Origin: Gymnorhina tibicen
Lineage: Eukaryota; Chordata; Aves; Passeriformes; Artamidae
Reading direction: 5' to 3'
Assembly (NCBI GenBank): GCA_013399875.1
Contig: VXAZ01002367.1
Coordinates: 868,001 to 932,000 of the forward strand
Length of the DNA: 64,000 nucleotides
The first letter of the stretch is position 1, and the number at the start of each line of letters is the position of its first letter. Shown here in pieces: positions 1,747 through 43,465 of this stretch. The translations under genes were made by a program, and so were the position numbers. The notes under the pieces were generated by a model that had not been told where the DNA came from, ran no database searches, and worked only from the letters and a program-made list of their open reading frames with translations.

Positions 1747-1883
1747 TGAAATTTAGAATAACTCAAAGCAGTTTTGGTGCACCAGAAATGCAGTGTGTGT
1801 ATGTTCTACAAGAGATCCAAGAGCTCCCTGTTCGCGAGGCTGTTGAGAAGTGGCATCCAACATTCAGTGCTCAGGTATGTTAG
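1747..1883 (+). CDS. Unrecognised candidate terminal or internal exon, plus strand
   Basis: A pyrimidine-rich acceptor (cttgcttccatcag) at 1746 opens a frame starting with two bases of a split codon. It reads KFRITQSSFGAPEMQCVYVL then QEIQELPVREAVEKWHPTFS and AQ, of protein-like composition. At 1875 there is a donor-like CAG|gtatgt. If unspliced, the frame stops after two more codons (TAG 1881-1883), with AATAAA at 1989-1994 giving a compact 3' UTR. I do not recognise the protein. If real, it is the last part of a gene running in from the left edge. Confidence 0.3.
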
Positions 1884-7468: not shown

Positions 7469-7584
7469 TTTAAAAGTGAGCAGGTCGCTCCCAGTGGAGC
7501 CAGCAGCCGGCATTCCCAAGGGACTGGAGTCCAAGCGGTGCCTGCCTCGGCCGGAGAGGGAGCAGTCCCATCGGACAGTGGTCA
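7469..7584 (+). promoter_or_regulatory. Candidate TATA-type promoter and leader exon for exon 1A
   Basis: A TTTAAAAG box at 7469-7476 is followed by a short CpG-bearing, GC-rich stretch of about 100 bases and a good donor, GGTCA|gtgagtg, at 7585. The surroundings are otherwise CpG-poor. Exon 1A at 10884 needs an upstream leader, and this is the best-looking layout I found in the preceding 10 kb. It is an inference from signals only; no other evidence ties it to exon 1A. Confidence 0.25.
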
Positions 7585-9585: not shown

Positions 9586-9634
9586 GATGATCTTTAAGGT
9601 CCCTTCCAACCCAAACCATTCTGTGATTCTGTGT
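9586..9634 (+). repeat. CR1 LINE 3' end fragment
   Basis: Contains the avian CR1 tail gatctttaaggtcccttcc and then ccattctgtgattctgtg. It is only the last 50 or so bases of the element, the usual heavy 5' truncation. Confidence 0.8.
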
Positions 9635-10924
9635 AAATGGCAGTGAATCCTCTCGTGGGTCTTAGTGGATCAAAGCTTGGAGCCATGTGTGGGGCTGTCT
9701 CTGCCCTGTTAGACTGGATCTGACCATGACTCCTTGCCCAAGTGGATGCCAAGGGATGAGGGTGAGGATGGAGCAGGTGTGTGGTGATCCTCTCCCAGTG
9801 TAATCTCTCACCCTTTGAGGGCCTCCAGAACCAGCAGTGATGCCTTTAGAGCACTGAATATGGGCTTACATGAATTTCCTTTAATTAAAAATAAATGGAG
9901 ATGAATGGTCTTGGACTCTAGCAAAAAAGACAGTGAAGAAAGGCTATGACAAGAACAAAAATCAGCCATTATCTTTCAGGACAGGACTGAAAGATTTCAG
10001 TGGAGGTCTGACTATTTAGCAAAGCGATTCCAAAACTCATCCTTGATGTATCTGAAAGACTCATAGAAAAGAAATGTATGCTTTACTTACTTTACCTTTT
10101 ATCCTCATTTTATTTTAATGACCAAGGAAAATGGGAAGAATGCAAATGAGTGAATGCCCTCTTTGATCTGTGTTGTTCCTGAGCATAATCTGGTAACCTG
10201 GCAGGCATCAGGCACGAGTGGAATTGCTGCCCCTAAGTAGGAAGAAACTTCAGCCCCTTTGCAAGCAGTTGCTCAGTTTGTTTGTTGGTTTGAGGGAAGC
10301 AACAGCCAAAAGAGCCCTGTCCCCCTGCAGAATAGGGGAGCTGGGCCCACCGTGGGGCTGATCACCTGCTGCTTACATCATGGGGATTATTCTTCTGACC
10401 AGGAATAACCTGAAATCATAAGGACTTCCACCCACAATCTGAGAAGTACACAATGAAGGATTCACCCTAAAAAAGCTACAACCACAGCATCGGGTTCTCT
10501 CCAGAGGGACTGTGACAGGAGTAACTTCCAGAAGCCATCTCCTGAGGTGGACACGGAGCCACAAGCTGGATGTAGGACAGAACAGAAAGTGGAAGCACTG
10601 ACTTCATCTGGGACTGAGGTCTGTCCCTGACATGGAGGCCACAGGAGTATTTTGAGGGTATGTATTTAAAATACAGGTGGAAGAGCTCGATGGGGTTATT
10701 GGAGAGGGAAGGGTGACCTTGGTTGTATTAGAATTGAACAATGGAACTGTTAAAAGGCAGCAAAAGGATTAAGGCTTCAAGAGTGGGTGATTGTAACTCT
10801 AAATTATTTTATTTTGCTTTAAAATGATGCCTGACTACATGTTATGCATATTCTGTGCAACACACATCTCTTCTGCTCTGCAGGACCCCAAGAAGCAGGG
10901 TTTGCTCTGGCATCTGCTCTGACC

Positions 10925-11141
10925 ATGTCTCCTCCAGTCCTTTCAGACCTGGGCTATGTCCCCCCCGATGGCGGATGGGGCTGGGCAGTGGTGTTCGGAG
11001 CCTCCATCTCAATTGGGTTTGCATTTACCTTTCCTAAAGCTTTCACAATCTACTTTAAAGAGATCCAGGCTGTTTTCAGCATCTCCTACAGCCAGATTGC
11101 CTGGACAACATCCATCATGTGTGCTACCACCTACGGAGGAG
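10925..11141 (+). CDS. SLC16A7: SLC16A7 alternative first coding exon A (upstream)
   Basis: Codes 72 residues plus one base (phase 1), starting [20 protein letters not shown], and covers the N-terminus, TM1 and the start of TM2. The ATG at 10925 has A at -3. The exon opens at 10884 after a pyrimidine-rich acceptor ending in cag (10881-10883), so a non-coding leader must lie upstream. The donor is GGAG|gtaagt at 11142. It joins in frame to exon 2 at 34369 exactly as exon 1B does. It has the same coding length as exon 1B, with 44 of 72 identical residues (42 of 60 after residue 12). Many conserved codons differ only at the third base (four of the eight in PPDGGWGW), which points to an old duplication kept under protein-level selection. 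The family lysine is at residue 38. It differs from exon 1B in TM1 (S27 for F, T35 for A) and TM2 (C66 for L). No second set of downstream exons was seen before exon 1B, so I read it as an alternative exon, not a separate gene. Confidence 0.8.
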
Positions 11142-14100
11142 GTAAGTGGAGCAAGGCTGTATCTTCTTTTGGAAAGAGGAGATTTGATCTCTGCACTAAA
11201 AGGGGAGAATGTATTTCTTTGAGAAAGTTCTTGGAAAGTGCTAACTGTAAGTCTGGCTTTCTATTTTCTGATGATATACACTGGCAAAACTGAGAAAACG
11301 GAGTTTTTTATTGCAAACATATATGAAGTCATCAATTATTATTTCATCAGAAATCTTGCTATGCATGGGTGAGTGGATGCTTGGAATTATTTGAGTCCAG
11401 GCAGTTATTTCAGTATACTTTGTCTTTTGTTCTGTTCCTATTCTTGTCTTTCCTTCTGAAACATAAATATGTTTTGTTTCAAAAAAACCCTTGTACTCAT
11501 GATTGCAGAGAAGCCACTGAAACTCAGAGCCCAAGTTTTGCTGATGTACAGACATGGAATATGTGCATGGATATCTTGAGATAGCATTGAAATACGCTTT
11601 TGAATTAGATGAATTGAAATATGTTTTTCCCTAAATCTGTTGCTAAAAATCTTTCTTCAAATGAGTAAAGGGATGACATTTCAAACTTTTCTCTGTAGAA
11701 TCTTTCTAAAAGAACAAATACATCCACCAGTTTATTAAAATTAAAATGTTCACTGGGTACTTGTACCTTGGCTGCAAAAGTCGCTGTTGTGGGAAGGTAT
11801 CTCTTGTCCTCATAATGAAACCGTCAAGTGGATGTTCCCTTAGGGATGTTTCCCTCAGATACTGATGCCAGGATATCAGTCTGCCACTTTGATCTGAGTA
11901 GCTGGTTAATCTTGCTGTTAATGGTTAGTAGAGATCATCTGGTTTTAGGCTGCTGGTGCCTGTGAGGTGCAGCTTCTGGCAGCTATTCCTGGGCTCTTAG
12001 CAGATCCTGGTGGTTCTTAGCTTGTTTTGCAAGGGTGAAAGGTAAAAGGATTAACACTTAAGAACACAAGAATAGCCACTCAACTCACACCTACCCAAAC
12101 CTGTATTCTTCCTAAAACAAGCCACTCACACTCTTTGGGAAGAGTATTACAAAAATTTTGTAGATGGAGGGATCTTCTTGGTACCCTCTCACCTTCAGGA
12201 CAGGGTGGTTTGGAGGCTTCCCGGGTCCCTCATTGCAGAGGTCAGGGGTACACCCTGTGTACAGAAGTCTTACACACTCATGTACTTTAGGAACTGGTTT
12301 TACATGGCAATAAAAAAAAGAGCTGGTGTGGGATGGATTAAGGTGAAAGGAGATGTACGTGACCAGAAAGGTGTGGGGGATGAGCTGCTTGGAGAAAGAG
12401 CCTTTTCAGGTCTGGCTGGAGTGGATCAGACCATCAGTGAGGCAGATTCACTGGGCCCTTTGGGCTGTGGCCTCTGCTGCAGATGGACAGAAGGGTTCAG
12501 TTCCAGGGGGAGTAAATCAGCAGCTCTACTGAACACTGATTTTCCCTTGAAACAATGGCTGTGTATCCTCTGGCTGCTGTTTGGCTCTGCTGTTTTTGCG
12601 TCAGGAGCTGAGAAGGGCTGACAGAGTCAGAGCCAGAGACTGAAGAGAGATTCATTTAGAGGGCTCATTTCCTCAGGGTGGCTGTTCAGGGCCCTCTGGA
12701 AGCTGGATGTCTGAAACTGAGCACCAGACATTGGACGTGTCTCAGAGTTGTTGGGATTTCTGGTTTTTTGTTCTCCACATTCCTTGAGCGAGGGCTCTCG
12801 ACATCCAGACGGAAATACAGAGGAGAGGACAGCAAGGGAACTGTTTGTGGTATTGATGGGGGAAGAAGCCATTACAGTATGAGACTTGTGGCTTTCATCA
12901 CTGATCTTCCCATCTTTAAATACAGACTTTTATGAAATCATATTGCTGCAGAGCTGTTATTATAAACTACAGCCGCGCATGCAAGTGCCTGACTTTCCTG
13001 GATACCACCTGTAACAACAGGAGGGTGCAGCACAGGCAGGAAAATATGAGATGCTGTGAAGCAAGCTGACTTTTCTTTTTCAACATTGCATTTATATTCA
13101 CACAGACTCTGGACCAAGAACTCAGTGCTGGTAGGGGCATCCTGTCCCTTTCACAAACACCTATGTTCATTGCTCCAAGAGCACCTTTCCTCTCTGGGGG
13201 TTTGTCCCCCAGACAGTACCTGTTGCTCTTCACCTCACTCAGCTTTTAAATCACTGCAGCATCTGAAATAGATCTTGGAAAAACATAAATCTGAGGAAAA
13301 ATCCCTGTGTACTCTTCTAGAATTAAGGAAGATCGAGTGTCTTTTCTGTTCTTGTGCATGATTCCTAATTCTAAACATTTCCTGTCATGTTCTCATCTTT
13401 CAGTTTTGCTGCCAGTAACTGGTGTTGACATCTCCATAGGTCTGAAAGCAGCAGCATGCTAATAATACTAGAAGAGGGAATGGCAATAATAATAGATTTA
13501 GGAGTTTCGTCTCGGGGAATAAATATCTTTGAGTGCGTAAGTAATTGAATACTCAGTTTGATCTTCCTTTCAGCTACAGCAGCATAAGTCTACAGCAATT
13601 CTGTAGCATCCAGTGAAGCTGCAGGCTGTGTTTGAGGAAGGCACCAACAAAGCCTGCCCAGAGTGGTTGAAGAAATGCAGGGCATCCCTTCAAACCCCAG
13701 CTTTTATTTTACAAAATTCAGAAAAGCTGCAGCTAGCTGTATATAAAGCAGTTGTTCAGGACAGCCTGCGCTACAGTAAAAAGGAAAAAAAGAAAGCTTC
13801 AACAAACATTGAATATCATTTTGGGTGAAGCCTGGTCTGCACAGAAGTCATCAGGCATCTTGCCATCACCTTTAGCAGAGCCAGGATTTCATCTTTCAGC
13901 TGCTGAGTTTGATCTACTGAACTGTAGCACTAGAAACCTGGCAAATTTCAGCCCTAAGCATTTTGGGAAAGGGGGCTTCCCCAACGGTCTTCAGGAATGT
14001 AAAGTAATGGAGCACCCTTTAAACCTTACCTAGGTAAGAGGTGTATCTTTGATGCATATCTTACAAGGAGTCATTGCTGTGGAGCTTATGGGGCTCTTGG

Positions 14101-17100
14101 GAAGGTCAGTCTGTAAACCTGGGATTACAACGGGCTTGAGTAAATACTACACTTGGACCAAAAAGTCTCCTCTTTTTGATCTTGTGGGGTAACAGGGATG
14201 TACAATGTCAAAAGTTCGACAAGTTCCTTAAGAACTCTCTGTGTAAGACCTTGAAAGTTAATGTTAAAGCATCGTGCTTGATCTGCTGGACAATGGTCAG
14301 CCAGAAGGGCAAAACAACCCAGAGAATTCAGGCCCAGGAGCCCGGCTGAGTTTACCCCCAGCAATCCTGTGCATTGCATCACCCTGTGTTAAGGGCACAG
14401 GGATGTCACACACAGCTCTCTGCACCACATGATCTGTGCACTCAACTCCTCCCAGGTTCGTTTCCATCATTGGTTTCCATATCCCAGCATTTTACTGGAT
14501 TTGAACGGTAATGAGGAACTTCCTGGCTTTCCTCCACCCCACCAAGAGGAGCTGGTTGTGTTCCAAGTAGCTGCAGACTTGATCCTGTTGTCCCACTTCC
14601 CACGTGCTCTTACAGTGCCCAGAGCCTCGCTGGTGACAAGCACTGTGTGGTGCCAGCTGAGACTGGCTCCTGCTCAGAGCATCCTCGTCCTTGAAGCAGA
14701 TCAAAGGTGACCTACATACACTCAGCAAAGAGCAGTACCTGCTCCCAGAACATTGCAGTCCTAGAGAAAGATTTCTTGGGGAAACTCATGCCCTTGTGGA
14801 GTTACAATCACTGCTCACAATTTTATTTGGTGGGGAACCAAAACTCATAAGAAAGCCCCAGCTGCTGCTTTAGGATATTTTTCTGTACCTATAATTGACT
14901 ATCCCTCCATTATATTAAAACTTCAGTGAGATGGGGTTAATTTTTTTGGAAAATACCTGCGTTACGTAATGACAAGGAGTACTATGATCTGCAAACAGTG
15001 GTGTTCCAGAGACTACTTGTAAACTGGTGTGCCATCCCCCTGTCCCCATGCCACTGACCCTCAATTCAGGCTTGGTCAACATTGTGCAGTTCCAGGTTTT
15101 TGCTGCTCTGCAGTGGGAATTGCTCTTCATGGTGATCCTGCAACATCTCTCCTCTCTCAAACATCATGAGAGTTTAATGAGATCTAAAGCTCTTCAACTT
15201 GATGAAGTGTTATTCAGGCAGCCTTGAGGCAGCTGATCCTTTTTCTGCCCTGTTGACAACTACTTGAGAGTTTACTTGGAAATGAGCTGGACACAGCAGT
15301 GGTTTTCTGGACCCAGATGTGCCACAGCTGCTGAGGGCCATGCCTTGGTGCTTGTGGGGGGGCTGGATGTGTCATAATTCATAGGATAAGTTTTGGCAGT
15401 CTAAGCTGCAGATCTTTGCTAACCTGGTTCCTTTTCACTGAAGGGAGTAAGGAAACTCTCACAAGAATATTTCCACCGGAAATCACAGGCAGGCTAAGTG
15501 GGTAAGACCAGCTGGGATAAGGTGGGATACCACACTGATTTTACTTTAACGACACTAAAGAGTCTTTATTCACTACGTGTTTACCTCAAGCAAAAATGTA
15601 CGGACTTGTTATCCTGTGGTAAAACCTCAGAGCAAGAACAGCAAGGCTTGAGTCTGGAACTGCAGAGCCACAGCGTGGGGAAGGCAGAGGTTTCCCTCTG
15701 CACGGTGTCACCAGTGGAGTCCCTCTTACTTTCAGTACAAATGAAAGAGTGACCTGCTCTGCTCTGGCTAATGTGTAATTGAACCTTCAGCACAACCTCC
15801 TGCCCCCGCTGTTTGTTTGCCTGTCTTTGTGTGCACAATCTTAAATGCCTTCAGGCTCGGCATTCAGCAGCGTTTGGAAAAAACCACAGTATTTCTGCTC
15901 ATTTTCAGTCATTAAGGACTTGGCATAACCAGACTTCTACCATAAAAGTTAATAGTTAAAATCTTGATGCATCTCTGAGTACTTCAACCATGTTGTTTTT
16001 CCCTTTCTGTGCAGTCATTTTCCAAATATAACAGAGGAAGATCCTTCTGGGATTAAAATGTAAATGAGAGAAAGATGCAATAGCAAAGGAATAATTTGTT
16101 TTAATTCCCCAGTGAAAACATTCCAGTTATTAGATCTAGATTGTCACCATCTTTTCACCAACAAGAATGTTTTGGTTTGAGCTGCTGATTAAACTCCTGC
16201 AACAAGAGAAAAACAGGAGCAGTGATGTTACTTCTTGGTTTATTCTGTTTTCTCCAGGAAAGCAGCACATCCCGCAGTGATGCTTCATGCACCTGGCTGG
16301 TTTGATGGCACAGACACAGGGCTGGGGCTGTCTGAGAGGTTTCCTGGCTCTGGAGAGGCTTATTTCACGTCATGAATCCCTCTGCCTGTCTGGACCTCAC
16401 GCTATTAATACTGGGGTTTAGCAAAAAGCAAGTTTGACATTTCATAACTTTCTATTTTGACCTCTCCTTGACCCCCTTGTAAAACATTACTCAGTGAAAA
16501 ACAAAGCCAGGAGGCTCTGCCAGCATCCCAGGTGGTTTCAGTGCCAGCACTGATGTCACTTGGCTCTGTGCAGTGTCACCCCATTACCAGGTGCAGGGGG
16601 CTGAGGGGCTGGTGGCTCTGCCTGCAGCAGAACATCTCACTCAGCAGCAAAGAGGCTGCATGGAAATTAAAGGTCCCCCCTCCCAAATAGCCATGGAGAT
16701 GTCAGGGGATGTGGATTGACCATGTTTGACCAACACATGCCACTTGGAACATGTTGGTGGGGTGCTGCCTGCACCCCTCCTGCTGCTCAGTGCCCTAGGA
16801 GCCACCAGCCAGAGTCAGGTTCCCTTTTTAATTAAAAACTCTGGCATGGAAATATTAGTGGTAAATCCCTGAATGGTGGAGTCTTGTGGTAAACACTGAG
16901 GAATGTGTTTTATCAGCCTGGTAGTGCTCAGTGGTGGGGAGAACACAGGGTATAAGGGTGATTCTGTGCTCGCTGGGAAGAGAAGTGATGCTTTGTCCCC
17001 CAGCTGGCACTTTGTGGTGGCATCTGGTTGGGGTCCAGAGCCAAGAATTTTGGTGACTTGAAATCTACTCTCAAGTATTAATCTGTATCTCTATGGAGTG

Positions 17101-17200
17101 ATCCCTTGGAAAAAGTTAAGAACTTTATTAGAAACATAAATATATGGGCCTATTTTTTGAGGACTGGGATGTCTCTCTCCTAAGACAGGTCACACAAGGC

Positions 17201-17271
17201 GACTGCAGGGGACATTCTTTAGAATGGCACCCAATTTAGTATTTCTGGAGAAGGGAATTCTCATCTTCCAG
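17201..17271. repeat. 71-bp dispersed repeat, copy 1
   Basis: Aligns without gaps to 18745-18815, with 62 of 71 bases matching by my count, including ggaattctcatcttccag-like ends. Flanks do not match. Read on the minus strand, both copies stay open with matching residues (WKMRI at the start, KLxxxLKNxPCS at the end), which hints at a fragment of an old transposable element or retrocopy. Family not recognised. Confidence 0.6.
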
Positions 17272-17841
17272 TAATGGTATTGCATGGGTCCAGCCCTTTG
17301 GTTTTGCAGAAAATTGCTGCCTATATTCTCATTCATTAATTCAGGAGCTCCATTTTAACTGTGGTTAGGGATTGGGTTTCACTGCTGCTGCATTTTATGA
17401 GCAAATGGAACATGACAATAGAGCAGTTTTAAGAAATGGGGTGTGCCATTAAAGACCCTTTAAAGAAGTGCAGAGGTACCTCTTTGGCACTTAGCAGATG
17501 CTGTTTTCATGCAGCAGAGCTAGGTATGGATTTTTTTATTTAATGTGGAAGCAATTTCTAAAGACTTTAATTGACTTGCAAAGACTCAATGAAGAAAAAA
17601 ATCTCTGTTGGAGTTATAGAGTTGTAGCTCTTACCTTTGGCTGCCATAAAATGCTTTGCATAAAAGGCTTTGAATAAAATTATTTCCAAATACCAAAGTG
17701 GCTCACTGAAAATAAAAAGAAATGTTTTCAATTCTTGAGGGAGTCCAGCGTTTTTTCCCCCCATCCTGTTTTTGTTCTCTTTCCAAGACAAGAAAAAACA
17801 CTCAAGTTGTCCTCACTAATCACTTTTGGGGGGAACTTATG

Positions 17842-18030
17842 TGCTTCACTATATGGGTGGTGAGGCGCTGGTGCAGGTTGCCCAGGGAAGCTGTGGCTGC
17901 CCCATCCCTGAAAATGTTCAAGGCCAGGCTCGATGGGGCTTGGAACAACCTGATCTGGTGGAAGGTGTCCCTGCCCATGCTCGGGGGTTGGTCCCTGTCC
18001 TCCCCAGCCATTCAGTGGTTCTATGATTTT
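17842..18030 (+). mobile_element. CR1 LINE 3' fragment
   Basis: Starts near cttcactat and continues ggttgcccagggaagctgtg, gaaggtgtccctgcccatg and a diverged tail ttctatgatttt. These are the standard CR1 3' UTR landmarks in order. It has many substitutions, so it is an old copy. Confidence 0.88.
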
Positions 18031-18744
18031 AAATATTGTTCATCAAACCTTGGCCTTCAATAAGTGAAGGATGTTAGTTCATTTGATTAAAACATCATGA
18101 CCTGGGAACTGCTGCAGAAAGCTTTGTGAAGATTGGAAAATGGGGAGAGAGGAAGAGTTTCAGATTCTGCTTGGCTCCTGGCCCTTTTCCCAGCGTGCCC
18201 CTCTTCTTTCAACAGCTCTGGAGCGGAGCACTGGGAATTACAATAGCATCACTTATTTACATGGAGTACTGTGATAGGGAAATGAGTCATTTGAAAAGGT
18301 GTTTTGCAATTTTAATCAATTTTGTTGCTGCTTGCCAGCAAATTAAAAAACCTGCCCTCCAGGAAGTGTCTGCTGTCAGTGGATGAGAAAGCAGCGCCTG
18401 GTCCTGGGGGACAGTCTGTGGTCCCAGCATGGAGGGGGAGCACTGGCACAGGCAGCTGCTGTGAGATGAGCCCAAGACTCCCTAAATCGCTAGCAAGTCC
18501 TTTTTGACCTAGTGAGCCCAGGATTTCCAGTGTCAGTCCCAGCCTCTGCCCTCAGGCTGTTCTGATTTGCTTGTGAGCTTCTCTTCAGAGCAGCAACAGC
18601 AGTGCAAAGACTTATCACTTTTAGACATCTTTAGAAATCATTTTTTTGCCCCCAATATCACCTGCTGCAGCTGGTTTCCTGCTCCAGTTCTGAGTTTGCC
18701 ACGAGTTTGTGTGAAAGTTTACCCAGAGGTGCCCTGCTGGGGTT

Positions 18745-18815
18745 GGCTGCAGGGGCCATTCTTTAGCATGACACACAATTTGGTAGTTCTGGGGAAGGAA
18801 ATTCTCATCTTCCAG
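18745..18815. repeat. 71-bp dispersed repeat, copy 2
   Basis: Second copy of the unit at 17201-17271, same orientation, 1.54 kb downstream, nine differences. See copy 1 for the shared minus-strand frame. Confidence 0.6.
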
Positions 18816-19471
18816 CTGGGAGTTCTTGCTGCTTCCATGGCTGGACTTGTACTCCCTTCTTCATCCCTCTGCTCACTGGGCTTTCCATCTGTCCTCCTAC
18901 CTTCCATGCTGCTGCTAAGGATGTGCCAAGTTCAATCCTAGGTGTGTTTATTTAGTTTTGACCTTATTTTTGATTTTTAACAGAACAGATAGCAGCTGCT
19001 GAAACAACTGAATGCTGGTATCTTCACAGCCCATAAAGTGGGTCAGAGCTGTACCAAAATAAAACTCTGCAAGTCGTCACGCTGTGCCCACAGCTGAGAG
19101 TAAATGTTTCTGGTCATTTTGAGTTTACTCAGTTTTATAGGAAGAAAGAAAGGGCAGTAACAAAACATCTTATAGTGGTGTTGTGAAGAGATTTTAAAGC
19201 TCCAGATTAACTGTGCCAGGTAAACTGCAGAGCAGGGCCCTGATTTTTCCCCCTCTCAGTTGCTTCATTGTGCATGTAGAAAAATGGGACACAGACAGGG
19301 CTGTTAGTTAAGCCAGGGGGAGGCAAGGTTGAGTAAGACAAAGTTTGTGGTGAAGCTGCACCTTCCCAGCCAGAGCAAACACTGCTTAATGTTTTCCCAA
19401 CCAGAGCTCCACATAAATACTAGAATACACAGCAAACTGGAGAACATGAACAGGGGGCAGAAGGCTGCAAT

Positions 19472-19767
19472 GATCACAGAATCACAGAATTCTGAATTGG
19501 GTTGGAAGGGACCTTAGAGCCCATCCTGTTCTAACCCCTCCGCCACCTTCCCCTATCCCAGGTTGCTCCAAGCCCCGTCCAACCTGTCTTTGAACACTTC
19601 CAGGGATGGGGCATCCACAGCTTCTACGGGCAACCTGTGCCAGTACCCCATCACACTCATAGTGAAGAATTTTCTCCCAACATCTAATCAAAACCTCCCT
19701 TCTTGCAGTTTAAAACCGTTCCCTCTTGTCTTATCAGCATCCACCCATGTGAAAAATCACTCTCCTT
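19472..19767 (-). mobile_element. CR1 LINE 3' fragment, reverse orientation
   Basis: Begins atcacagaatcacagaattc, then ggttggaagggacctta, ggttgctccaagccccgtcc and gggcaacctgtgccagt, as expected for a reversed CR1 3' end of nearly 300 bp. It ends about 175 bp before the CpG island of exon 1B. Confidence 0.92.
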
Positions 19768-19941
19768 TTTTTTATAATGACAATGTGGTCCAGGGGCAGG
19801 AGAACAGCCTGCAACTTGGTATGGAGGAGAAAAGAGCTGGGATTTTAGTACGGGAGAGAAAAGAGGAGGGGATGCAGGCGGAAACACAGGGGAAATAAAA
19901 AAGAACAATTTGCATTTAAGTAACTGAGGGTGGTTTAATTA

Positions 19942-20450
19942 ATGCCCGCGGGGTTGCTGGTGCTGCTGCCTCGGCTGGAGGCGAGGAAACACGAGGGGAC
20001 AGGGTGCTGGAGTAAGGGATGTGATTCCCGGGGGGGTTTGGAGCGTGTCCCCTCGGCCGGGGCTGGCCGGTCCCGCCTGGGGCGGTGCAGCCGCTCCCCG
20101 CCCCGTCCCGCAGGGCCAGAGCCGCGCCAGCGCCGCGCTCCGCAGGTGGGTCCTGCCGCGGGGTGTGCGGGCTCCCGTGTCCCACGAGCGTCCCACGCGT
20201 GTCCCGGGGGCTCGGCAGGCATCGCGGGGGCGGAGCAGCGGGTTGGAGCCGCTGTTTCTGCTTTTCCTCACTTCCACGTGGCATTTCTGCCCCGTCCCGC
20301 TCCGCCGGCACAGCTGCCAGCGGCTGGGGCTCTTTGCGTTCGGTGGCCACGCAGGGGGCTCGGGTGGGCGCCACACGACACGGGACTCACTAGAACGAAG
20401 GTGTGTCGGGGCGATGCTGCGCTGCAGGGTGGTCATGGGGAGCAGCATCC
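19942..20450 (+). promoter_or_regulatory. CpG island promoter of the exon-1B transcript
   Basis: Abrupt change from AT-rich DNA to GC-rich sequence dense in CpG, with GC boxes (gggcgg near 20080, ccgcccc near 20098) and no TATA box. It ends about 170 bp before exon 1B. Islands of this kind mark broad promoters in birds and mammals. Start sites are expected inside it, feeding a non-coding leader that splices to the acceptor at 20623. The long open frames on both strands here are GC artefacts. Confidence 0.7.
20040..20145 (+). other. SLC16A7: Candidate non-coding leader exon for exon 1B
   Basis: Exon 1B has a 3' splice acceptor, so a leader exon must lie upstream. The best donor in the island is CGCAG|gtgggt, cut after 20145. 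The 5' end is not defined by sequence and is set only by the dense CpG core and GC boxes. No conserved coding frame is seen. Confidence 0.35.
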
Positions 20451-20595
20451 CGGGACTAGGGGTCTAGGGAGCAACACCCCAACACCGAGGTCTGGAGAAG
20501 TAGCATCCCGAGACTAAAGGTCCATCCCGGGACTGGGGGTCTGGGGAGCAGTATCCTGGGACGAGGGGTCCAAGGGAGCAGCACCCTGGGACTGA
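20437..20595. repeat. GC-rich minisatellite just upstream of exon 1B
   Basis: About five imperfect units of 28-31 bp built on ggggagcagcatcccgggac plus a ggggtct-like tail. The third unit carries a partial extra copy. The array ends 28 bp before the first base of exon 1B and so covers the branch-point and upstream acceptor region of that intron. Confidence 0.75.
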
Positions 20596-20654
20596 CCCCG
20601 CAACTTTGCCCTTTGTATTCCAGGGCTCCCCGAGGAGCGTGGGCCCTCCCGGCC

Positions 20655-20871
20655 ATGCCGTTCCCCGCTGAGGCAGGGCGAGCCCCCGGCCCGCCGGATG
20701 GCGGCTGGGGGTGGATGGTGGTTTTCGGCGCCTTTGTCTCCATCGGCTTTGCCTACGCCTTCCCCAAAGGTTTGGCCATCTTCTTCAAAGAAATCCAGGA
20801 TTTCTTTGGCACGTCCTATAGCGAGATCGCATGGGTCTCCTCCATCATGCTGGCCACGACGTATGGTGCAG
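20655..20871 (+). CDS. SLC16A7: SLC16A7 first coding exon B (CpG-island exon)
   Basis: Codes 72 residues plus one base, with PPDGGWGW at 13-20, FAYAFPK ending at lysine 38, and SYSEIAW in the loop before TM2. These match mammalian MCT2 more closely than exon 1A does, so this is probably the canonical start. The ATG at 20655 has G at -3 and is the first in the exon, which begins at 20624 after an acceptor ending in cag (20621-20623). The donor is GCAG|gtgagt at 20872, phase 1. The third codon positions are GC-rich, as expected beside the CpG island, in contrast to exon 1A. Confidence 0.9.
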
Positions 20872-23800
20872 GTGAGTGATCCTGCACCAGCCCTTGGGGC
20901 ACGGTGTGTTCTAAGAGCAGGAATAAGCTCTTACAACAGCCAGAAATCTCCACTCTGGGCCAGAGTAGAGGGAGAGCAACAGTGTCCTTCTGCATGGACA
21001 CCATCCACAGATTTGCTTTCTGATCATGTCCAAATGTTTGTTTAGGCAGACAAGTCATATTTGGAGCCTAAGGGGCTCTTACCCAGAAATCAGAAGATTA
21101 CCTATGAAAACTTTCTATGGGCATTAGGGAAAAAGCCCTGAGAATAGGCTGGTGTGAAATAACTGGGTCTGGGTTTCAGCCAGAGCTGAGTGTGGAGTAG
21201 AATAATAAATGAAGTAGCTGCTTGTTTATTGTGGCAGCTGATAATCACGGCAATGAAATCGCCAGAGTCAGTCGTTCTTATCAGTTGTAAAGCAGTGCAT
21301 GTAACTTTGCTCTTTTTTACGATTTCAATATCACTTTCATGACTCAATGAAATACTTGGGCTGCCCTTGATTAAATCTGCAGTTGGAGGTAGACAGGAAC
21401 CACACTCAGCAATTGCAGGAAGTTTCCTCAATATTTATCCTGTCTATTAAAGAAATTCTGAAAATAATCTTTGTTTTTACAAAAGTTTTTTCTTTTCCCT
21501 AATAATGCACTGTAGTGCTTTTTGAAGAGCACAGATGCTAATGAAAATAAAGTTGCTTTGTATAAGTTTGTAAGGTGGAAGTGAGGCTTGAGTCAGAACC
21601 TATTGTAATCCACTCTTGTAATCCAGACTCGGTCCTACAGACATCAGCTCTGCAAAAGCTGAGGTCCTATACAAGAACCCACAAATGGAGCAAAGAACCC
21701 ACTTGCAGGGCAAAACCCAAGCAGTGATTTAGAAAGAGAAATCACCTGCTTGTGACAGTGCTGTTGTCCCATTACACTGCAGTAAGTGTGCCAAAGTAGT
21801 TATCTGTGGGCTGGGGGCTCCTTGGCTGCCTCTGTGAGTTGTTGGCAGCTCTGCTTTGTCTTCCAATAAAAAAATGTTGTCCCCTCCCCTGTATGGAAGA
21901 GATGCTTTGTGTCTGACCATGACCAAGTGAGGAACATGCTCTGCAGATTAACCTTGCACCTGGCAGCACCTCAGGTTGCTCGCAGGGATTTAGATGGGGA
22001 GTTTGAGCCTCTTGGGGTTCAGCTCACGGCCAGCGAGCTGGTGCTGGAGCAGGTGAAATGCTGCTCTGACCACCTCTGCCTCCTTCTAACTGCTCATTTT
22101 CCAACCCGCCTTCTTCTCTGTCTCTCCAAGTGTTCAAGTCAGGGCTGTGTGCTCTGTACCTGGGATGTTGTAGTGGACTTTTATCCCAATTAACTGAGCA
22201 TCTCTTGCGTTTTTGCAGGAGCTTTAACTTTACCCTCCCTAATGCTATGACATGGTGATGTGGGGGATGATACAGCTGAATTGCAGGCGATTGTACCTTT
22301 GTAGCTTCCCACTTGCCTTGCAGCTGCTCAGTTATGTCCAGTTGCCAGTTCTCCCCTCCTCCGCTCTGCTCTGGAGTAAGCTTGATGCTTGTTGGATCCT
22401 CCCTGTCTTCGCAGTGACCCCGGCTGAGGTGCTGAGTGTCCCAGCGGCTGCAGACAGGGCTGTGGTGGGAGCTGGCGGAACACGGAGTCAATGAAACGCG
22501 GGTGCCCGGGAGTGTATTTAACACGTCTGATTTGATTGACTGATTTAATGCTGGAGCGGGTTTAGCTTATGAATGACTCCAGGCATTTGGAAATTCTCAT
22601 TAAAGGACAGTTCCTCTGAGCTGCCCGAGTTTTTCTCTGCCGCAGTGCCTGTTAGAGCTGTGAGGATGCAAAGCTTGATTTAGTCTGCTGAAAAACTAGA
22701 AAACAGTTTAACACTGGATTTTTGCTAATCTTTCTGAAAAAAGAAATTCTAAAGACACCAAGCTTTTAACATACTCCTGAATAACTAACAGAGTTACTAA
22801 ACCAGGGGATTATTGCCATAGCATGTCCATCCCTTCCTTTCCCAAGTCAGTGGTGATGCAGAACGGTCATAGGCTGTGTGGAGGTGCAGGTGATGCTGTC
22901 TGCAGCCATGTGGGAACAGTGTGGGGTCACTGAGCATCTCCTACATAAAGCATCAGGCACATGTCCCCGGGGGCTGGAGGGGCCAGTGGTGCATTTGCTG
23001 GTGTCAGGTGTGGGCATCAGAGCCATGGAAGGAAACCCCCATGAGGACTGACCCACCCCAGCTCCCTCCATCCCCAGGAGCATCACAGCTGCCCTGTGCC
23101 CTGGCAGGGCATGCAGAGGCCAAAGTTTTCACTGACCAAGGCTTTTGTTTGCAAACATCCCCTGGTTTCCTTGGTGTTCTCATTGGTCTAAGGACTTGTT
23201 TTTCGGCTGTGCTGCTTACATTGTAACAGAGCTTATGTTTGCATTTCATAAATAATGCAAATGAAGTTTATTTTCTGAAAATACATGAACTAACCCAAAT
23301 CTCCACTGGAGAAGCTGTGTTGACTTTGACAGCATGGATGCAGATTTACGGTGACCACCTGAGGCTTTGCTTGTAGCACCAGAGGAGTTCCAGTTTTTCA
23401 GACTAAAACTGAAAATCAGCAGCCAAGTCTGTTTCTGCCCTTCACTTTCTGCTGAATTCCCCCAGGAAGCTGTTTTATACCAGCCGAGGCTCTGGCGATA
23501 TGTATTACAGAAGTTAATGTGTCTTATCCCCCAGTTTCTTAATCTGAACTAGGTTGAAGAAAACAATTCTGTCACTATAATACAAGTAGTAAAATGGATT
23601 ACTGTGCAGTAAAGTGGATAGCCTGGACTTTATGATGGGGTACTTGTAGTTCTTGCCAGAGCTCCTGTTCAGCAATTCCACATTTCCAATTGCAGAGGGC
23701 AGACTGGGAGGTTTGAGAGTGAGGAGTGTGAGGGAACATTGCTTTTCACTGACCAAATCCCACAGGCTGAAATCCTATCAATCTGATAAAGAAGGATTTG

Positions 23801-32800: not shown

Positions 32801-35800
32801 TTCTCATTGAATTCTGTAGTGCTCTGTGCAGCAAAAGGATGCATGTGTGTGAATCCAGTTACAAGATTAGCAGAAAAACTCTCCACGTAATTACACACAC
32901 ACACAGAAATTTTAATTGAATGGTGCATTTGATGGGACCAGATCACAGATCACACGGTTACAAGGATGTTGTTGAGACTGTGCTTGTGTGCATGAGTGTT
33001 TATGAGTGTTTTGACTGAGACATCTAGGGGAAAGTATTTCTGTGGGCTTCATTCCCCAGATTAAACCAGCCATACCCACTGTTTTCTATTCTTGCACAAT
33101 ATAACAGCTGAGAACTTGTTCGTATGCTGTCAGCCATGCTGAGGGAGTGTTGGTGTTTCTGGGTTTCATTCCTGTGATCGGGAGTGCTGTGGTTTGCAGG
33201 GTCTGGAGAGAGCTCTGGAGCTATTTCTGGCTGAGGTTATTTAAGCAAAGGTAAATATCCTGCCATGGCTCTGTGGTGAGGTAGGTCCCACAGCCAAACT
33301 CTTTAGAGATGCCTGTGAGTTTAAAATACCTGTTTCCAGTACTGTATGTGTGGCTGGTACGGGAAGTGGCAGGAATGAAGGCAAACAGGCACACTGGGCT
33401 CTGAAACACCATTACTGTATGATGAGTAGCACCACAAATAGCTAGGTAAGTTCAGATATTAAACCTGCCTGTAATCCCCTTCCTCATTTCCAGTATCACT
33501 TTTGAAGCATTTTAATTCAGGATTTTTGAGTAATACAGAATCTTTTCCTTACATCTCACAGCTTGGACTTCTGGACTGCTCTTTCCTGTTCAGTTTGCCT
33601 CCTCTAGTCCTGACTTCTCAGTCTGTTCTAATTTCAGAGCTGGCTTTTCTTTGAGCAGGAGGTTGGTCCTGAGGTACCATCAAAGTCTCTCCAATATATA
33701 TCATACTGTGATTCTGATTTTTACTGGTCTCACTTCCTCAGATTTCAATGCTTTGTTTCAGTGTGCACAGTTTTGTCAAGCCATTTCCCTCTTTCATAAT
33801 TTTGCACTTTCTTGAACCTCCTCTTTGCATAAATGCAAGTCCAAACTGGTTCTTTTGAGCTCTGGCTAATCCATCATCCCAAACCTTTTCTACCTACATG
33901 GACTGCTATTAGGATTTAATTAACAATTGTTCTGCTGAAGCTTTGGTCCTGGTCAGCAGTACTGGAATTGCATTAAAAAGAGGCAGTAAAAATGCAACAG
34001 CATTTGTGGTATGAGCCTTGCAATACGAACCGCTGCTTTGTGTGTATAGTTTAACATCATCATGAATCCAGAAGTTCCTGTGCTGGGATCCTGTGTTCAC
34101 ATGATTTGTTATTGCTGTTTGCCTTCTCTGCTGACACTTGAAAGTCCTGGGGACAGAAGCTGTCACCGACTACACACCCGTGGCATTGGACATGCTGCCA
34201 CTTCCATGTGGATCATCTCTGCTTTTCCATTTTCTTCCTGAACTCACCCTAGAAGCTGTCAGCAGCACTCAGGGCCATTGATACTGCAGAGCTTTACCTG
34301 CTTTGTGTCAAATGTGCCCTTCTGTCAGAAGATATGACCTCAAGGTCGCTTTTGCCCCCTTTCCCCAGGTCCCATCAGCAGCATTTTAGTGAACCGCTAC
34401 GGCAGCCGCCCCGTGGTCATGTTTGGGGGCCTCTTGTGTGGTGTGGGGATGATCTCAGCCGCCTTCTGCACCAGCATCCTGCAGCTCTACATCTGCGTGG
34501 GCTTCATCACAGGTGAGAACAAAGCATCTCCTTCCCCTCCACATGTGAGGCTCCCTCCTGATGGCTTGGGACTTCCACACCTGGGCAATGTGAGGACCAA
34601 CACAAACGCAATGGGAAGCTGGTGAGATAAAAAGCTTGTGAGATAAAAATCTGGTGAGGTGAAAAGCTGGTGGGACAAGGGCCCTCCTTATCAATGTTCC
34701 AGACGAATTTTAGCAAAGAGCACGCTCCCTGCTCGGCGCCGTGTTCCTGGCTGGACATCCTGTGTGGGATCCAGGCAGGGCTGTACTCTCTGCAGCTGAG
34801 TGCTCTGGGCCAGAGTGCTGGGGATGGTGGCCATCAGTGCCCTCAGCTCCCCCTGAGGCAAACCCAGGTTGACTGTGCTCTGCCCTGGGCAAGCCAAGTC
34901 TTTCTGGATAGAAGTGTGGCTATAAAGAAAGCACCCATGTTCCTATTTTACTGTGTGTTATCTTCCCTCTGTGAGATACATGAAATGAGATTTCAGGGGT
35001 TTGCTTTAATTTACTTGCCCTTTGCCAGCTTGTGAGGTGAGGACGTCCTTTATCTGAAAATAAGAACTTCTGGAGTTGACTGAAAATAGGCGACAATCTC
35101 CCTATTGAGAAAAAAACAACCCCTGTATTTCCTTCTTGAAGTTCCGGTTTGAATTGCCTATATTGAAATATGAAATTCTATGTTGGAAACCCAAACAGGA
35201 TAAGGCATAGGCTCAGTCCAGCATCTTTAAAGCCTGCAGGTGCCAGGTTATTGCTTTTAAAGGTAGCTGGATTAGAGCTCTCCACCTGCGTATAGATAGC
35301 TTAACTGTAAGTATTTTTGTTTTATTATTTTGGATAAGGCACAGCAAAAGTTTCTTCCAGTGCAGCTAGGACATCTGCTTGAAAACATGACACGATGAGT
35401 TCAAAATTGGCTTTTGAGGTTGCCAGGTATATGGTTTTAATGAATGCTCCCAATCTCTTCTCAGATGCATTAACTGGTGCTGCTTTCTGAATGTGAAAAT
35501 GTGAGCTCAACATTTAAAATCAATAAAACCAGGCACTAGCAAAGTAAATTGGGACAGAAAGTTTGTCACCCTGTTCTTCTATATCAATATTCCTTTATTA
35601 AATCTGTACAGTAGTGAATAAAGGCCCATGTAGGATTCCCTCTCTTAAACCTTACTCTAAGGACTGTCGCTGTAATTAGATGAAACTGTGTTATTATTGG
35701 ATGAATAAATCTTGCAGATTCCTTGAGAGAGACTCCAGGAACAAAGTGATGGAAAATAAAAATAACCAACATCTCCCAGTATTTCTTAATGTGTGAGCTT

Positions 35801-38800: not shown

Positions 38801-41800
38801 ATGCTTGAAAATATTATTGATGTTTGATTATTGATTATCACTGTGGGGCATCGGGAAGAATTTTTTCACTGAAAAGGTGATTAAACATTGGAATGGGCTG
38901 CCCAGGGAGATGGTGGCTTCACCATCCTTGGAAGTGTTCAAGAAAAAACTGGATGTGGCACTCAGTGCTCTGGTCTAGTTGATAAGGTGATGATTGGCCA
39001 AAGGTTGGACTCCGTGGTCTTAGGGATCTTTCCCAACTTTACTGATTCTGTAATTCTATAGTTCTATATGGCAGTGCTCTCAAACACAGAAAATTGAGAC
39101 CATCACAGCATTTGGTATCTCTGCCTTCAGATTCCACCTGTGCAGGACAAGCTGGCCAATTGAATTAGCAATTCAAGATTTCTAATGGCATTTATATATC
39201 TAAATGCAATAAAAATAAATTCTAATTAAAAGAAACACTCTAGGGTCCTGTATAATTAGCATTCTCAGTAGCTGTTTTGCTGTGTACTTGCAGACCTCTC
39301 AATCTTTTGCATCAGACCTGAATTGCTTACAGCACCAAATCAGTTGTGGCTGAGGAGAGTGATGTTATTTTTTGTGCAGGTCTGGCTGCCCAGCAGCAGA
39401 GTTGGGTGTCCATGGAAGGGAAGGCCAGCCCTTGATGGATGTACTTTGGTGGCTGGCACTGTCCAAGCCAAAACAACCTTCCTCAAACTGGGAGTTGCCA
39501 TTTTTTAAAAATAGATCCATTCTCTCCCCCAGCAAGGCTGCTGCATCTGGGCAGAAGCCACCAGCATTCCATGAGGGAATGGTTTTGGTTCACTCTGAAG
39601 CAAACTCTTGGTGCTAGTTTTGCCACCCAAGAGATTTGCAGTGCAAAAGGAAGGGGCATTCTCTGACTGAAAGAGTATTTCTGGGGTCTGGTTACCCAAA
39701 AGTGGCAGCCAGAACTCAGAGACAACCTGAGCAACGTTTGCATCCCAGATTATTGTGTTGAAGAACCAATTGCCTGTGAATTTCCTTAAACAATGAGCTG
39801 AGAAGAAATGGGTCTCAAATCTTCCTTTATCTGAACTGTTTTCCAGGATTTGGCCTTGCCCTCAACCTTCAGCCATCAGTGATAATCATAGGGAAATACT
39901 TCTTGAAGAGAAGACCCATTGCGAATGGCCTTGCTATGGCAGGGAGCCCTGTGATGCTTTGCACCCTGGCACCTCTAAACCAATTCCTTTTTGACAATTT
40001 TGGCTGGAGGGGCAGCTTTTTAATTCTTGGGGCAATTTTATTAAACTGCTGTGTGGCAGGAGCTCTCTTCAGACCCATCGAGGCAGGCACAGCACTGGTC
40101 AAAACCCAGGTGGCTGAGGAAGGGAAGGATGCACTGAAAGGAAAGATCACTGAAGATGGCAAGGAAATGAGTGGTGCCCTGAATGTCCCCATGGAGAATG
40201 AAACAGAAGAGGAAGAAGGAAAGGACTGCTTTGAAAAAATCAATCAGTACCTTGATTTTTCCCTCTTTAAGCACAGAGGGTTCTTGATTTACCTGATTGG
40301 AAATGTGCTCATGTTCCTGGGATTCTTTGCCCCCATCGTTTTCCTGGCACCCTATGCAAAGCACACTGGCATCGATGAATATTCAGCTGCTTTCCTCCTT
40401 TCCATCCTTGCTATTGTGGATATGGTTGCTCGCCCCGCCACCGGCATCGTTGCCAACAGCAAGTGGGTGAGGCCACGGATTCAGTACTTCTTCAGCTTCG
40501 CCATTGCTTTCAACGGCGCCTGCCACCTCCTGTGCCCGCTGGCCTCCAGCTACACAGGGCTCATTGTGTACTCCAGCTTCTTTGGCTTGGCCTTTGGCAT
40601 GGTGTGTGCCATGCTCTTTGAGACGCTGATGGACCTGGTGGGAGCTGCCCGGTTTACGAGCGCCGTCGGCCTCGTCACCATCGCCGAGTGCTGCACGATA
40701 CTGCTGGGACCACCTATTGGAGGTGAGTGTGTTTTCCTCCTCTGCTGCCACTGGGTTGTCGCTTGGATTTAGACTTTTGCAAGCACAGTTTGTAGGAAAT
40801 TATTCTAAATGTGTTTTCTCTGCCTCACAATCACCATTTTTCCACTAGTAGCTCTATAGGAAAGGATGTCCTTGATGTCTCCTCCAGCATTTCCTTTCCT
40901 CTTTCTGTGTAGTCCTCCAGTTGAAATCAGTCTTGGAGAGTAATCTTTTAATCCTGAATCCCTTCAAACACTTGAACTAAACTTGCAGAGTGGGACTTCC
41001 TACAGCACCAAGAACCTTGCATTTCAGACAACTCCTCCTAGAGATTCCTCCTTTTGCAAAGGGCTGGAGCCCACCACAATTTACCACAGCAGTTCTATGA
41101 AAGCCTCTTTCTGACTCAAACCCTGTTTGTCTCTAAGGGTCTAAGTACACCATTTAGGAATGTCAGTCATCTTAGTGCAGCTGAATGATTTAAGTCTGTT
41201 CCAAAAATAACTTAAAAAAAGATTTATATTGGATGGCATGGTCTGAAATATCAGAAGTTAGAGCCCACAAAGGTCCACGTGGACAATATTGAGTCTCCAG
41301 CAGTCATCGCTTTCGGTCATCTAAAGATAAGTAAGGCCAGTGATCTCCTGTGATTTAACAGCCTTAATATTCCCTCTATACCATGTGCTCCTTTTGCAGT
41401 TTGAACCCTTTTCCTGGATTCAAAACTGAGATCTGGCTAATGCTCCATATGACACATCCTGCAGAGCTGTTTAATTCTCCGTATTACTGTGTAGCTCATA
41501 CAGTGTGACAGAAGCAGCTGTATCCTCTTGCTGTCTTAGAGATTCATTATTTAATTAATGACAAACAAAAGAAAATACAGTTTTAAAATAACTATTTTCT
41601 GAATTATATAATTTTCTGTGTGGGAGATTAAGTTAATGACCAGAGACTGCTAATGAGGCTAAAACAGTTCTGTGTAATAATCAGTAATATTAGTTTTGTA
41701 GGGCTTTCCCCACCATTTTAATAAGCAGCAAATTTATTGGTCCTTTGGCATTTTAATAACCTACTGCAGGGTTCTGCTTTAATGAACTAAGTAAATTGTT

Positions 41801-43465
41801 CCCAGTGTGTTTTATGACTTTATCTTATTCTCAAAGGAAAAGAGGCAAGACTATCCTACTGTTGAATTTTCCAATACTCTACTCATTAAAGCTCTCATTG
41901 AAACCTATTTAGGAGACCTCTAGGTCATCCTGATGAGCAGAAAAGGAAAAATTGTTGCAATTAGCATTTGGTTGATGTTTCACCAGTAGCATGAAAAACA
42001 CAGTGCATTGAAAATGGTGTACCAAGTCAGCTAGGGATGATTCAGGAAAAACCACTGACCAAAACCAGTTAAAAATTTATTATTTTTATGATCAGGAAAT
42101 CCATTTGGTGACCATAAAAACCCTTGTTAGTGCAATGCAGTGGGATAATTAATCATCAGCTTTTCAACATTAAGGGTCAATTGGGAAGTAATTAAAGGTC
42201 CCTCTTTTTGAGGAGGAGAACATATTCCAAAAAGTCAGAGTTAATGGATGATGGGCCAGTTTCAGGGAAGATTGTCTGTACTGTGAAGGCCAGGTTAGGA
42301 GGGGGTCTTACTTTAATTAGGATTTGGGATGTTAAGAATGGTCTGTGTTGCCCAGTAAATGGGAATTAATGCTCAGGATCATAATCCCAATAAGATTTGC
42401 ATTACATTTTGACATAATGGAGAACGGTGACATTTCAATTAAGCTGTCTCCCTTCAATTACTCTATAACTCTGTAGCAGAGGCATTAACCTTTGAGAAGA
42501 ACCTGTCACATTTGTCTTGGCATTGAAATTATCTGACATTGACAGCATCATCTTTGCTTTCCCTGGAACTAATGTTTTCCAGCTTCACGCTGTGCCGTTT
42601 CCTCTTTAGACCATGAGTGCAAATGCAGAAAGGGCAGCTGTGACCAAAAGCTGAGTCCCCTCTAATGTTGGTGGGTGACCCGTGGTGGAATAAATCAGAG
42701 GGTCTCTGCCAAGAGCCTGAGACGAGACCCAGTGGGCAGGTGCCTCCTCATGAAAGTCTTCCCTAAAGCTGCCACTTTTTGACTGCCAAGCCAAATGGAC
42801 TTCCTTGTAGTTGATCACCAGAGTCAGTGGAAAGGCTGCCTGCAGACTCTGTGATCAGAGAAATAGTTTAGCATGGAAAAAATAGGTGTCCTGGAAAAGT
42901 CCAGACTTCGCAGTGTAGGTTCTGTCCCGTTCTACTGAACTGTGTAAATTATCAGAGCATTACCTGTACCAGTGTCAACTACCCACAGGCTGTATAGTGC
43001 AACACATGTTCAGTATTTGCAGGCTCAGGGTGTTTGTGGAAGAGATCAGAATTTCAGAGAATGTCTTATCCTAAAGCCACAAGGGTGTTCCTTTATATAT
43101 AGGATCTGAAAACACAATATCCTTGCCTTCATTTCTAAAATTCCTTTTTTTTTTTTAATATATGTTTTACAGGAATTCTTATTGATACCTTTGGGGACTA
43201 TAAATATATGTTCATTAAATGTGGAGCTGTGATGGTCCTGGCAGGAACCTTTCTGTTCATCATGAATTATTATAATTACCGTATGCTTGCCAAGGAGGAG
43301 AAGGAAAGAAAGACAAAAGAAGAGGATCCTAAATCTGTAAGGACAGGAAATGAAGGCAGAAAAAACTGGAACAATGACTCCACACAGGATGGGCCTGAGC
43401 TGGAACCTTTGAGAGATGAGGGAGAAGGAGTAAAGAAGGAAATGAACGGCACAAATGAAGTTTAA
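20655..43465 (+). CDS. SLC16A7: Monocarboxylate transporter 2-like (SLC16A7), whole spliced coding region, CpG-island form
   Basis: Joining 20655-20871, 34369-34512, 39847-40722 and 43173-43465 gives 1530 nt, 509 aa plus stop, with every junction GT-AG in phase 1. The family moves lactate, pyruvate and ketone bodies with a proton across the plasma membrane through 12 membrane helices, with both ends cytosolic. Family marks are visible: the TM1 motif PPDGGWGW at residues 13-20, the lysine at 38 (as K38 of MCT1), [16 protein letters not shown] after TM4, and DMVARP in TM8, which keeps the Asp and Arg needed for proton and substrate coupling. Runs such as [23 protein letters not shown] and [12 protein letters not shown] match MCT2 better than MCT1, MCT3 or MCT4 as I remember them. 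The protein is about 30 residues longer than human MCT2 (478 aa); the extra length is in the central loop and C-terminal tail. SLC16 carriers usually need basigin or embigin to reach the membrane. The family is certain; the exact orthologue is likely. Confidence 0.85.
23921..23978 (+). repeat. CR1-like 3' tail, very short
   Basis: gatcttagagatcttttccaa followed by a diverged ttattctgtaa resembles the terminal 55-60 bases of CR1. Short and diverged, so moderate confidence. Confidence 0.5.
29146..29167. repeat. (TA)n microsatellite
   Basis: About eleven uninterrupted TA dinucleotides inside the first long intron. Confidence 0.95.
34369..34512 (+). CDS. SLC16A7: SLC16A7 exon 2 (TM2-TM3)
   Basis: This 144-nt exon is phase 1 at both ends. 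The acceptor is tttccccag and the donor is ACAG|gtgaga. It encodes residues 73-121, [20 protein letters not shown] followed by a hydrophobic helix ending CVGFITG. That is the loop with the conserved NRYGSRPV element and TM3 of MCT1/2-type carriers. Being symmetrical, it can be spliced to either first coding exon. A short tandem repeat begins about 100 bp after the donor. Confidence 0.92.
34616..34679. repeat. Short tandem repeat, about four 16-bp units
   Basis: Units read aagctggtgagataaa, aagcttgtgagataaa, aatctggtgaggtgaa and aagctggtgggacaag. They lie about 100 bp after the exon 2 donor. Confidence 0.8.
35836..36115 (+). mobile_element. CR1 LINE 3' fragment
   Basis: Recognisable from gatgactttaaactgacaga and ttagattagatactaggaa through ggttgcccagagaagctgtg to the tail ccattctgtgattct. 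It is close to the usual CR1 3' UTR throughout, so younger than the other copies here. Confidence 0.93.
38855..39068 (+). mobile_element. CR1 LINE 3' fragment, different subfamily
   Basis: Contains gaagaattttttcactgaaa, gggctgcccagggagatggt, gaagtgttcaagaaaaaact and the tail gattctgtaattctatag. The gatttggca/ctcagtgctctggtctagtt section differs from the copies at 17842 and 35836, so it belongs to another CR1 subfamily. Confidence 0.88.
39847..40722 (+). CDS. SLC16A7: SLC16A7 exon 3 (TM4 to TM10, main transport core)
   Basis: This 876-nt exon encodes residues 122-412 plus split codons. The acceptor is ctgttttccag and the donor is GGAG|gtgagt. It holds LALNLQPS and IIGKYF, the second family signature [16 protein letters not shown], then [20 protein letters not shown] and RPIEAG at the end of TM6. 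A cytosolic loop of roughly 60 residues follows, rich in charge and including [11 protein letters not shown]; it is longer than in human MCT2. The loop ends at [19 protein letters not shown] (start of TM7). TM8 carries VDMVARP with the Asp/Arg pair known in MCT1 to be needed for coupled transport. LLGPPIGG closes the exon before TM11. Large central exons of this kind are normal for SLC16 genes. Confidence 0.95.
40723..43172 (+). other. SLC16A7 last intron
   Basis: 2.45 kb without a coding frame. The section at about 41520-42560 is rich in TAAT/ATTA motifs and low in CpG. No repeat family recognised. Confidence 0.6.
43173..43465 (+). CDS. SLC16A7: SLC16A7 exon 4 (TM11-TM12, C-terminal tail and stop)
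   Basis: The acceptor is tatgttttacag, preceded by an uninterrupted T tract at 43147-43156; the first two bases complete the split glycine. The exon encodes [20 protein letters not shown] (TM11/12 region), then [13 protein letters not shown], the basic stretch that follows TM12 in MCT1 and MCT2 (NYRLLAKE in mammals). A hydrophilic tail of about 60 residues follows, ending in TNEV with TAA at 43463-43465. The tail is highly charged and likely to diverge quickly. Confidence 0.93.

Follow-up and report, generated by a model that had tools for sequence, protein, structure and literature searches.

The window analysed here, a stretch of 64,000 nucleotides on contig C566 of a genome assembled into 1.02 Gb and 2500 contigs, contains two first coding exons that precede a single set of downstream exons of an MCT2-like SLC16 gene. 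All parts of the gene lie on the + strand. Coding exon 1A is at 10925..11141 and coding exon 1B at 20655..20871; each has 217 coding nt (72 codons plus 1 nt) and ends in a phase-1 donor, GTAAGT for 1A and GTGAGT for 1B. A 5' leader follows an AG acceptor in both cases, with 41 nt for 1A (10884..10924) and 31 nt for 1B (20624..20654). Position -3 of the ATG is A or G across both exons, being A at 1A. The shared part consists of exon 2 (34369..34512), whose acceptor fits the phase-1 donors of both 1A and 1B, exon 3 (39847..40722), and the last coding exon, exon 4 (43173..43465), which ends in a TAA stop. The exon coordinates, lengths and donor phase were as the initial annotation had claimed. 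It had also proposed that both first exons join exon 2 in frame at 34369, and forms A and B, once joined to exons 2-4, were each open over 509 codons and gave an uninterrupted 509-residue MCT.

The two exons encode clearly related peptides, and their residue numbering coincides with that of MCT2. A recount gave 44/72 identical residues overall and 42/60 past residue 12, in agreement with the 44 of 72 and 70% reported earlier, and Lys38 and the motif DGGWGW (residues 15-20) were confirmed in both forms. At two residues of the pocket, 1A has Phe34 and Cys66, and 1B has Tyr34 and Leu66; 1A further carries Ser27 and Thr35, and 1B Phe27 and Ala35. Silent codon differences had been taken to mean that both exons are selected. 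We found different codons at 24 of the 44 residues common to 1A and 1B, and over codons 13-72 pS was 0.759 (saturated) compared to a pN of 0.158, so both exons look constrained. When 2.2-kb stretches around 1A and 1B were compared, the sole significant match was the exon itself (E 1e-23), with the next at E 2.1. Exon 1A matched PDB chains named MCT1 at 7e-24 and 1B matched PDB chains named MCT2 at 2e-25; by these matches, chance is excluded. Each exon-1 peptide searched alone against Pfam yielded no family, and an Rfam search over the window gave nothing at gathering score. Four paralogous first exons of the same genome also appear to have a donor at this codon and in this phase, and the border and phase of 1A and 1B are therefore not specific to the pair. 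The noteworthy point is that two such first exons feed one set of exons 2-4; sharing border and phase is common in the family.

Several traits of proton-linked SLC16 carriers of the MCT1-4 type were present. Lys38 is encoded in both first exons, and exon 3 keeps the equivalents of Asp293 and Arg297 in TM8, as well as Phe351 of MCT2. Tyr34 in TM1, another such trait, is present in form B and absent from form A, which has Phe34. Form A is a family member by descent and by its other residues, and we do not claim it as a proton-linked carrier by function. At the position of MCT2 Ser355, exon 3 has Cys, as do 139 of the 226 database rows in which the motif could be read, the other 87 having Ser. 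MCT3 and MCT4 are reported to carry Gly at this position, a site linked to pyruvate affinity (PMC7228944). AlphaFold2 models of form A (P0007) and form B (P0012) reached mean pLDDT values of 60.2 and 69.0, respectively, which were too poor to use.

A CpG island at 19801..20900 of the + strand (segments 19801-20500 and 20551-20900) lies before and over 1B and is a possible promoter of the B form. No CpG segment was found in window positions 1-19800, and more CpG-rich segments lie downstream of the gene at 55301-55800 and 47801-48250. Two promoters would be the simplest reading; 1B nonetheless has an acceptor. Transcripts started upstream would then include 1A and pass over 1B, those started in the CpG island would include 1B, and either first exon would join exon 2 in frame. 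If both first exons of the window gene were included together, the 248 nt added would shift the frame and bring translation to a stop in exon 2, at codon 162. Among public models, Prinia P0021 and Callipepla P0003 place the two exons on a single transcript, the former reading 1A out of frame and the latter in frame, so either the exclusiveness of the exons is not strict or these models are wrong. A joint transcript might start at the ATG of 1B, with 1A acting at times as a leader. The acceptor of the Prinia model lies inside the CpG island, and no AG was found in the window at the aligned spot.

The initial annotation named the gene SLC16A7. This name was not borne out, as the SLC16A7 of this genome sits on other contigs and the window gene lies outside the MCT2 branch; on this evidence, the window gene is an MCT2-like paralogue separate from SLC16A7. 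Nine first-exon matches were found genome-wide, comprising 1A, 1B and seven elsewhere. By our reading, first exons elsewhere appear to be those of SLC16A7 (C2078), SLC16A1 (C1403), SLC16A8 (C1485) and SLC16A3 (C1055), and the first exon on C2078 was identical to that of Melanerpes MCT2 across the 60 residues compared. Exon 3 copies elsewhere in the assembly were at best 72% (C682) and 59% like exon 3 of the window. In the tree of shared exons, C682 exon 3 paired with Melanerpes MCT2 (99/84). The MCT2 rows, C682 included, formed a 98/99 branch that also held the exon 3 read as SLC16A1, and because both are in this branch the tree does not settle the order of MCT1 and MCT2. Outside that branch, the window gene grouped among sauropsid rows named MCT2-like (100/100), its nearest rows being passerine birds, and amphibian rows joined next (86/75). 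MCT2-like rows of ray-finned fish were placed on the MCT2 side (91/80), which makes their orthology unsure. No named mammalian row was among the best 120 of 2180 matches (7995 candidates scored). The gene is a sauropsid paralogue, with amphibian kin at weaker tree support.

The neighbourhood was also compared. A kelch/BTB gene, which we take to be KBTBD8, lies upstream on the same strand at C566:862106-866819, outside the window, and ends approximately 12 kb before 1A. It was recognised from matches to P0181 and to the reading frame after it; the Zosterops model P0181 fuses this gene with exon 1A. LRIG and TAFA neighbours would be the ground for the idea that the window gene may be a genome-duplication sister of SLC16A1 and SLC16A7. 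A tblastn search of 264 kb with SUCLG2 and TAFA1 queries gave nothing at E 0.01, a result that holds for that stretch only. SLC16A7 is reported to adjoin LRIG3 on chicken chromosome 1 (PMC9687483), compared to the kelch/BTB gene found beside the window gene.

Three protein searches were performed to the extent of the best 120 of 2180, the best 120 of 677 and the best 120 of 162 matches. The database rows are representatives of 90% clusters, in which missing taxa mean little, and the public isoforms are mostly predicted gene models. Proteins of birds and reptiles named 'monocarboxylate transporter 2-like' started with either exon type. Among the matches listed, A-type rows came from passerines, parrots, a woodpecker, a tinkerbird, quails, a duck, a mousebird, a kiwi, a gharial, Podarcis, Liasis and P0062, and B-type rows came from many birds, Alligator, turtles, Sphenodon, lizards and snakes. 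There was no turtle or tuatara A-type row among the matches listed, all representatives of 90% clusters. The A-type exon ran straight into exon 2 in frame in 15/19 A-type rows among the matches listed; the remaining 4 were the window exon itself and the odd models Callipepla P0003, Guaruba P0015 and Zosterops P0181. Melanerpes formicivorus was the one species where both forms were compared, and its isoforms X1 (B) and X2 (A) were alike at 42/61 residues of exon 1 and identical at 427/427 residues of the shared part. Exons 2-4 of A-type and B-type rows from the same or near species were 95-100% alike in the pairs compared, P0062 aside. This last row (source lgn) also has an A-type exon running into exon 2; its 468-residue ORF lies on contigs of <=1764 bases, which indicates a sequence without introns. 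The shared exons of P0062 were just 74-80% like the other sauropsid rows compared, and it may come from another, rapidly evolving gene or from a lineage not otherwise sampled. Exon 1 of Nothoprocta P0035 was half A and half B, and in Guaruba P0015 an inserted stretch separated 1A from exon 2; these two models may reflect annotation errors.

The exon-1 tree was built from 16 A rows, 22 chosen B rows and outgroups over 60 columns, leaving out P0003, P0015 and P0181 (chimeric or odd) and the half-A, half-B P0035. The A rows formed one clade (100/99) and the B rows another (99/93). In the shared-exon tree, with 10 A and 12 B rows, A and B rows interleaved and paired by species, Liasis A with Python B and Gavialis A with Alligator B. 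Since the exon-1 tree splits by type and the shared-exon tree by species, the pair represents a duplicated alternative exon within one gene. By these trees, the duplication predates the parting of archosaurs and lepidosaurs. Comparison of A and B as mutual closest kin with an earlier split of A favoured neither topology (p-AU 0.474). Thr69 was found in 15/16 A rows and 21/22 B rows, and none of the 59 rows with Thr69 was a named fish or amphibian; this distribution hints at a sister relationship between A and B.

Residues of 1A were kept at 59/60 positions in Empidonax, 54/60 in kiwi, 48/60 in gharial, 48/60 in Podarcis muralis and 45/60 in Liasis. Those of 1B were kept at 57/60 in Melanerpes, 53/60 in Alligator, 54/60 in Podarcis lilfordi and 53/60 in Python. 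By these counts both exons are conserved, with 1A changing more than 1B across equal distances. At positions 52, 53, 57 and 66 there was zero overlap between the 16 A and the 22 B rows. Under a looser rule, in which the commonest residue differs and accounts for >=80% of A and >=60% of B, twelve positions separated the clades (27, 39, 40, 41, 43, 47, 49, 50, 53, 57, 62 and 66). At positions 27, 47, 57, 62 and 66 all B rows matched 11 fish and amphibian rows, A being derived; at 39 and 41 the change was mostly on the B side. The A exon of the python Liasis was without several A-type residues, having Phe27, Ala35 and Leu40.

Taken together, these data make it very probable that a single MCT2-like SLC16 gene carries a pair of homologous first coding exons used as alternatives, that the pair arose by duplication before the bird/crocodile and lizard/snake lines parted, and that the two forms differ in the TM1/TM2 face. 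The initial annotation's central claim, of two complete, conserved and interchangeable first coding exons of one MCT2-like gene, thus holds in the 15/19 listed A-type rows that join exon 2, in the near equality of exons 2-4 in the pairs compared and in the old A/B split. Phe34 in 1A, the age of the pair and the CpG island, present at 1B but not at 1A, go beyond what that annotation had pointed out. The two exons, the gene model, the age of the pair, the constraint and the use of both exons in public gene models are shown by the data; which promoter is chosen, whether the exons exclude each other in vivo and how A and B differ in function, we infer. Differences between the A and B carriers would fall in the cytosolic tip, in TM1 and in the beginning of TM2, including pocket residues 34 and 66. 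Form B, with the usual pocket residues there, would most likely be an ordinary H+/monocarboxylate carrier. Form A, with its altered TM1/TM2 face and, in this bird, Phe34, would probably be slower, differently selective or a regulatory partner.

One case within this explanation is that both exons are used only to place one and the same carrier under two promoters, with transport unchanged. We consider this case unlikely, although it carries real weight. Lys38, Tyr70, DGGWGW and most of TM1 are common to A and B, but positions 52, 53, 57 and 66 have no A/B overlap and further positions mostly differ. Tyr70 mutants of MCT2 are reported to keep activity, so not all pocket residues matter (PMC7228944); Leu66, however, is reported to line the inhibitor pocket of MCT2 (PMC12894981). 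Residue 34 bears on both sides. In human MCT2, Tyr34 is described as linking Lys38, Asp293 and Arg297, and Y34F abolished active transport (PMC7228944). Phe34 was present in 5/19 A-type rows (the window, Chamaea, Manacus, Empidonax and Zosterops) and in 1/225 others (P0128) among the matches listed. Passerines accounted for this distribution in form A, with Phe34 in 5/6 passerine A-type rows among the matches listed, the antbird Pithys keeping Tyr34. Tyr34 was kept in 13/13 non-passerine A-type rows among the matches listed, which agrees with unchanged transport in those birds and reptiles.

It is much less probable that 1A is what remains of a tandem gene copy that has lost its other exons, and that it is unused or just an untranslated leader for B. 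No further copy of exons 2-4 turned up next to 1A within the window, and exon 3 is without a close second copy in the genome, as a remnant would have it. The Prinia model with 1A out of frame ahead of 1B and the lower conservation of 1A compared to 1B point the same way. However, 1A is open, with a good donor and A at -3 of its ATG, 48/60 of its residues are kept as far as lizard and gharial, pN is far below pS between 1A and 1B, and 15/19 A-type rows among the matches listed join exon 2 in frame. That 1A belongs to a second SLC16 gene, with exons 2-4 elsewhere or in an assembly gap, is highly improbable, for while an assembly of 2500 contigs may be incomplete and the 74-80% likeness of P0062 suggests that some animal may own such a gene, A-type rows share exons 2-4 with B-type rows of the same or near species at 95-100%, and the splicing of 1A to a different SLC16 gene, which the initial annotation had named as a refutation, is spoken against by the lack of any exon 3 elsewhere more than 72% alike.

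Within the explanation of one gene with alternative first exons, the position of Phe34 merits further consideration. New here is a natural counterpart of MCT2 Y34F in passerine 1A, any functional effect of which we infer. Form A with Phe34 may have changed its job rather than decayed, because it has a Y34F-like residue yet 59/60 exon residues in common with Empidonax. Changes nearby in form A could restore transport. A more speculative and rather unlikely scenario is that in many passerines first-exon choice toggles between B (Tyr34), a functional carrier, and A (Phe34), a conserved form incapable of proton-driven net transport; A could then exchange substrates, act as a sensor or modulate B as its dimer partner. 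The last of these roles is suggested by the report that MCT2 is a cooperative dimer in which TM1 touches the partner (PMC7228944). If this scenario is true, the A form would amount to a Y34F mutant occurring in nature.

Among known systems, SLC16A7/MCT2 (PDB 7BP3, 9L0B) is the best solved relative of 1B and exon 3, with Lys38, Asp293, Arg297 and Phe351 kept; in contrast, the window gene is separate and has Cys for Ser355 and Thr for Met69. Mammalian SLC16A7 is not known to have a second coding first exon. The score of exon 1A is slightly better against SLC16A1/MCT1 (PDB 6LYY) than against MCT2, but the gene read as SLC16A1 is on contig C1403 and not in the window. The predicted 'monocarboxylate transporter 2-like' isoforms X1 and X2 of Melanerpes formicivorus represent the same gene with the same two first exons; however, these are automatic models, and the pair, its age and Phe34 are without evident description in the openly licensed literature. 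No paper on the 1A/1B exon pair was evident in that literature, and the pair thus appears to be recorded in public gene models yet undescribed there. Homologous alternative exons are known in other transporters, namely NKCC2 (SLC12A1 exon 4), ZIP14 (SLC39A14 exon 4) and SLC25A3 (exon 3), where the duplicated exon swaps a membrane stretch and can alter affinity or tissue use. The swapped exons in those genes are internal, whereas in the window gene the swapped exon is the first coding one, with the start codon, and any effect on function is putative.

SLC16A7 has been reported as three paralogues in Neoaves (PMC10722388). By our trees, at least one MCT2-like gene is older than birds, and that report should allow for an older gene and two isoforms. 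The determinants of affinity and direction in MCT1-4 are reported as being worked out via point mutants (PMC7228944, PMC13265630). Two TM1/TM2 front ends on one carrier body, kept since before archosaurs and lepidosaurs parted, offer a ready-made pair with which to ask what TM1 decides.
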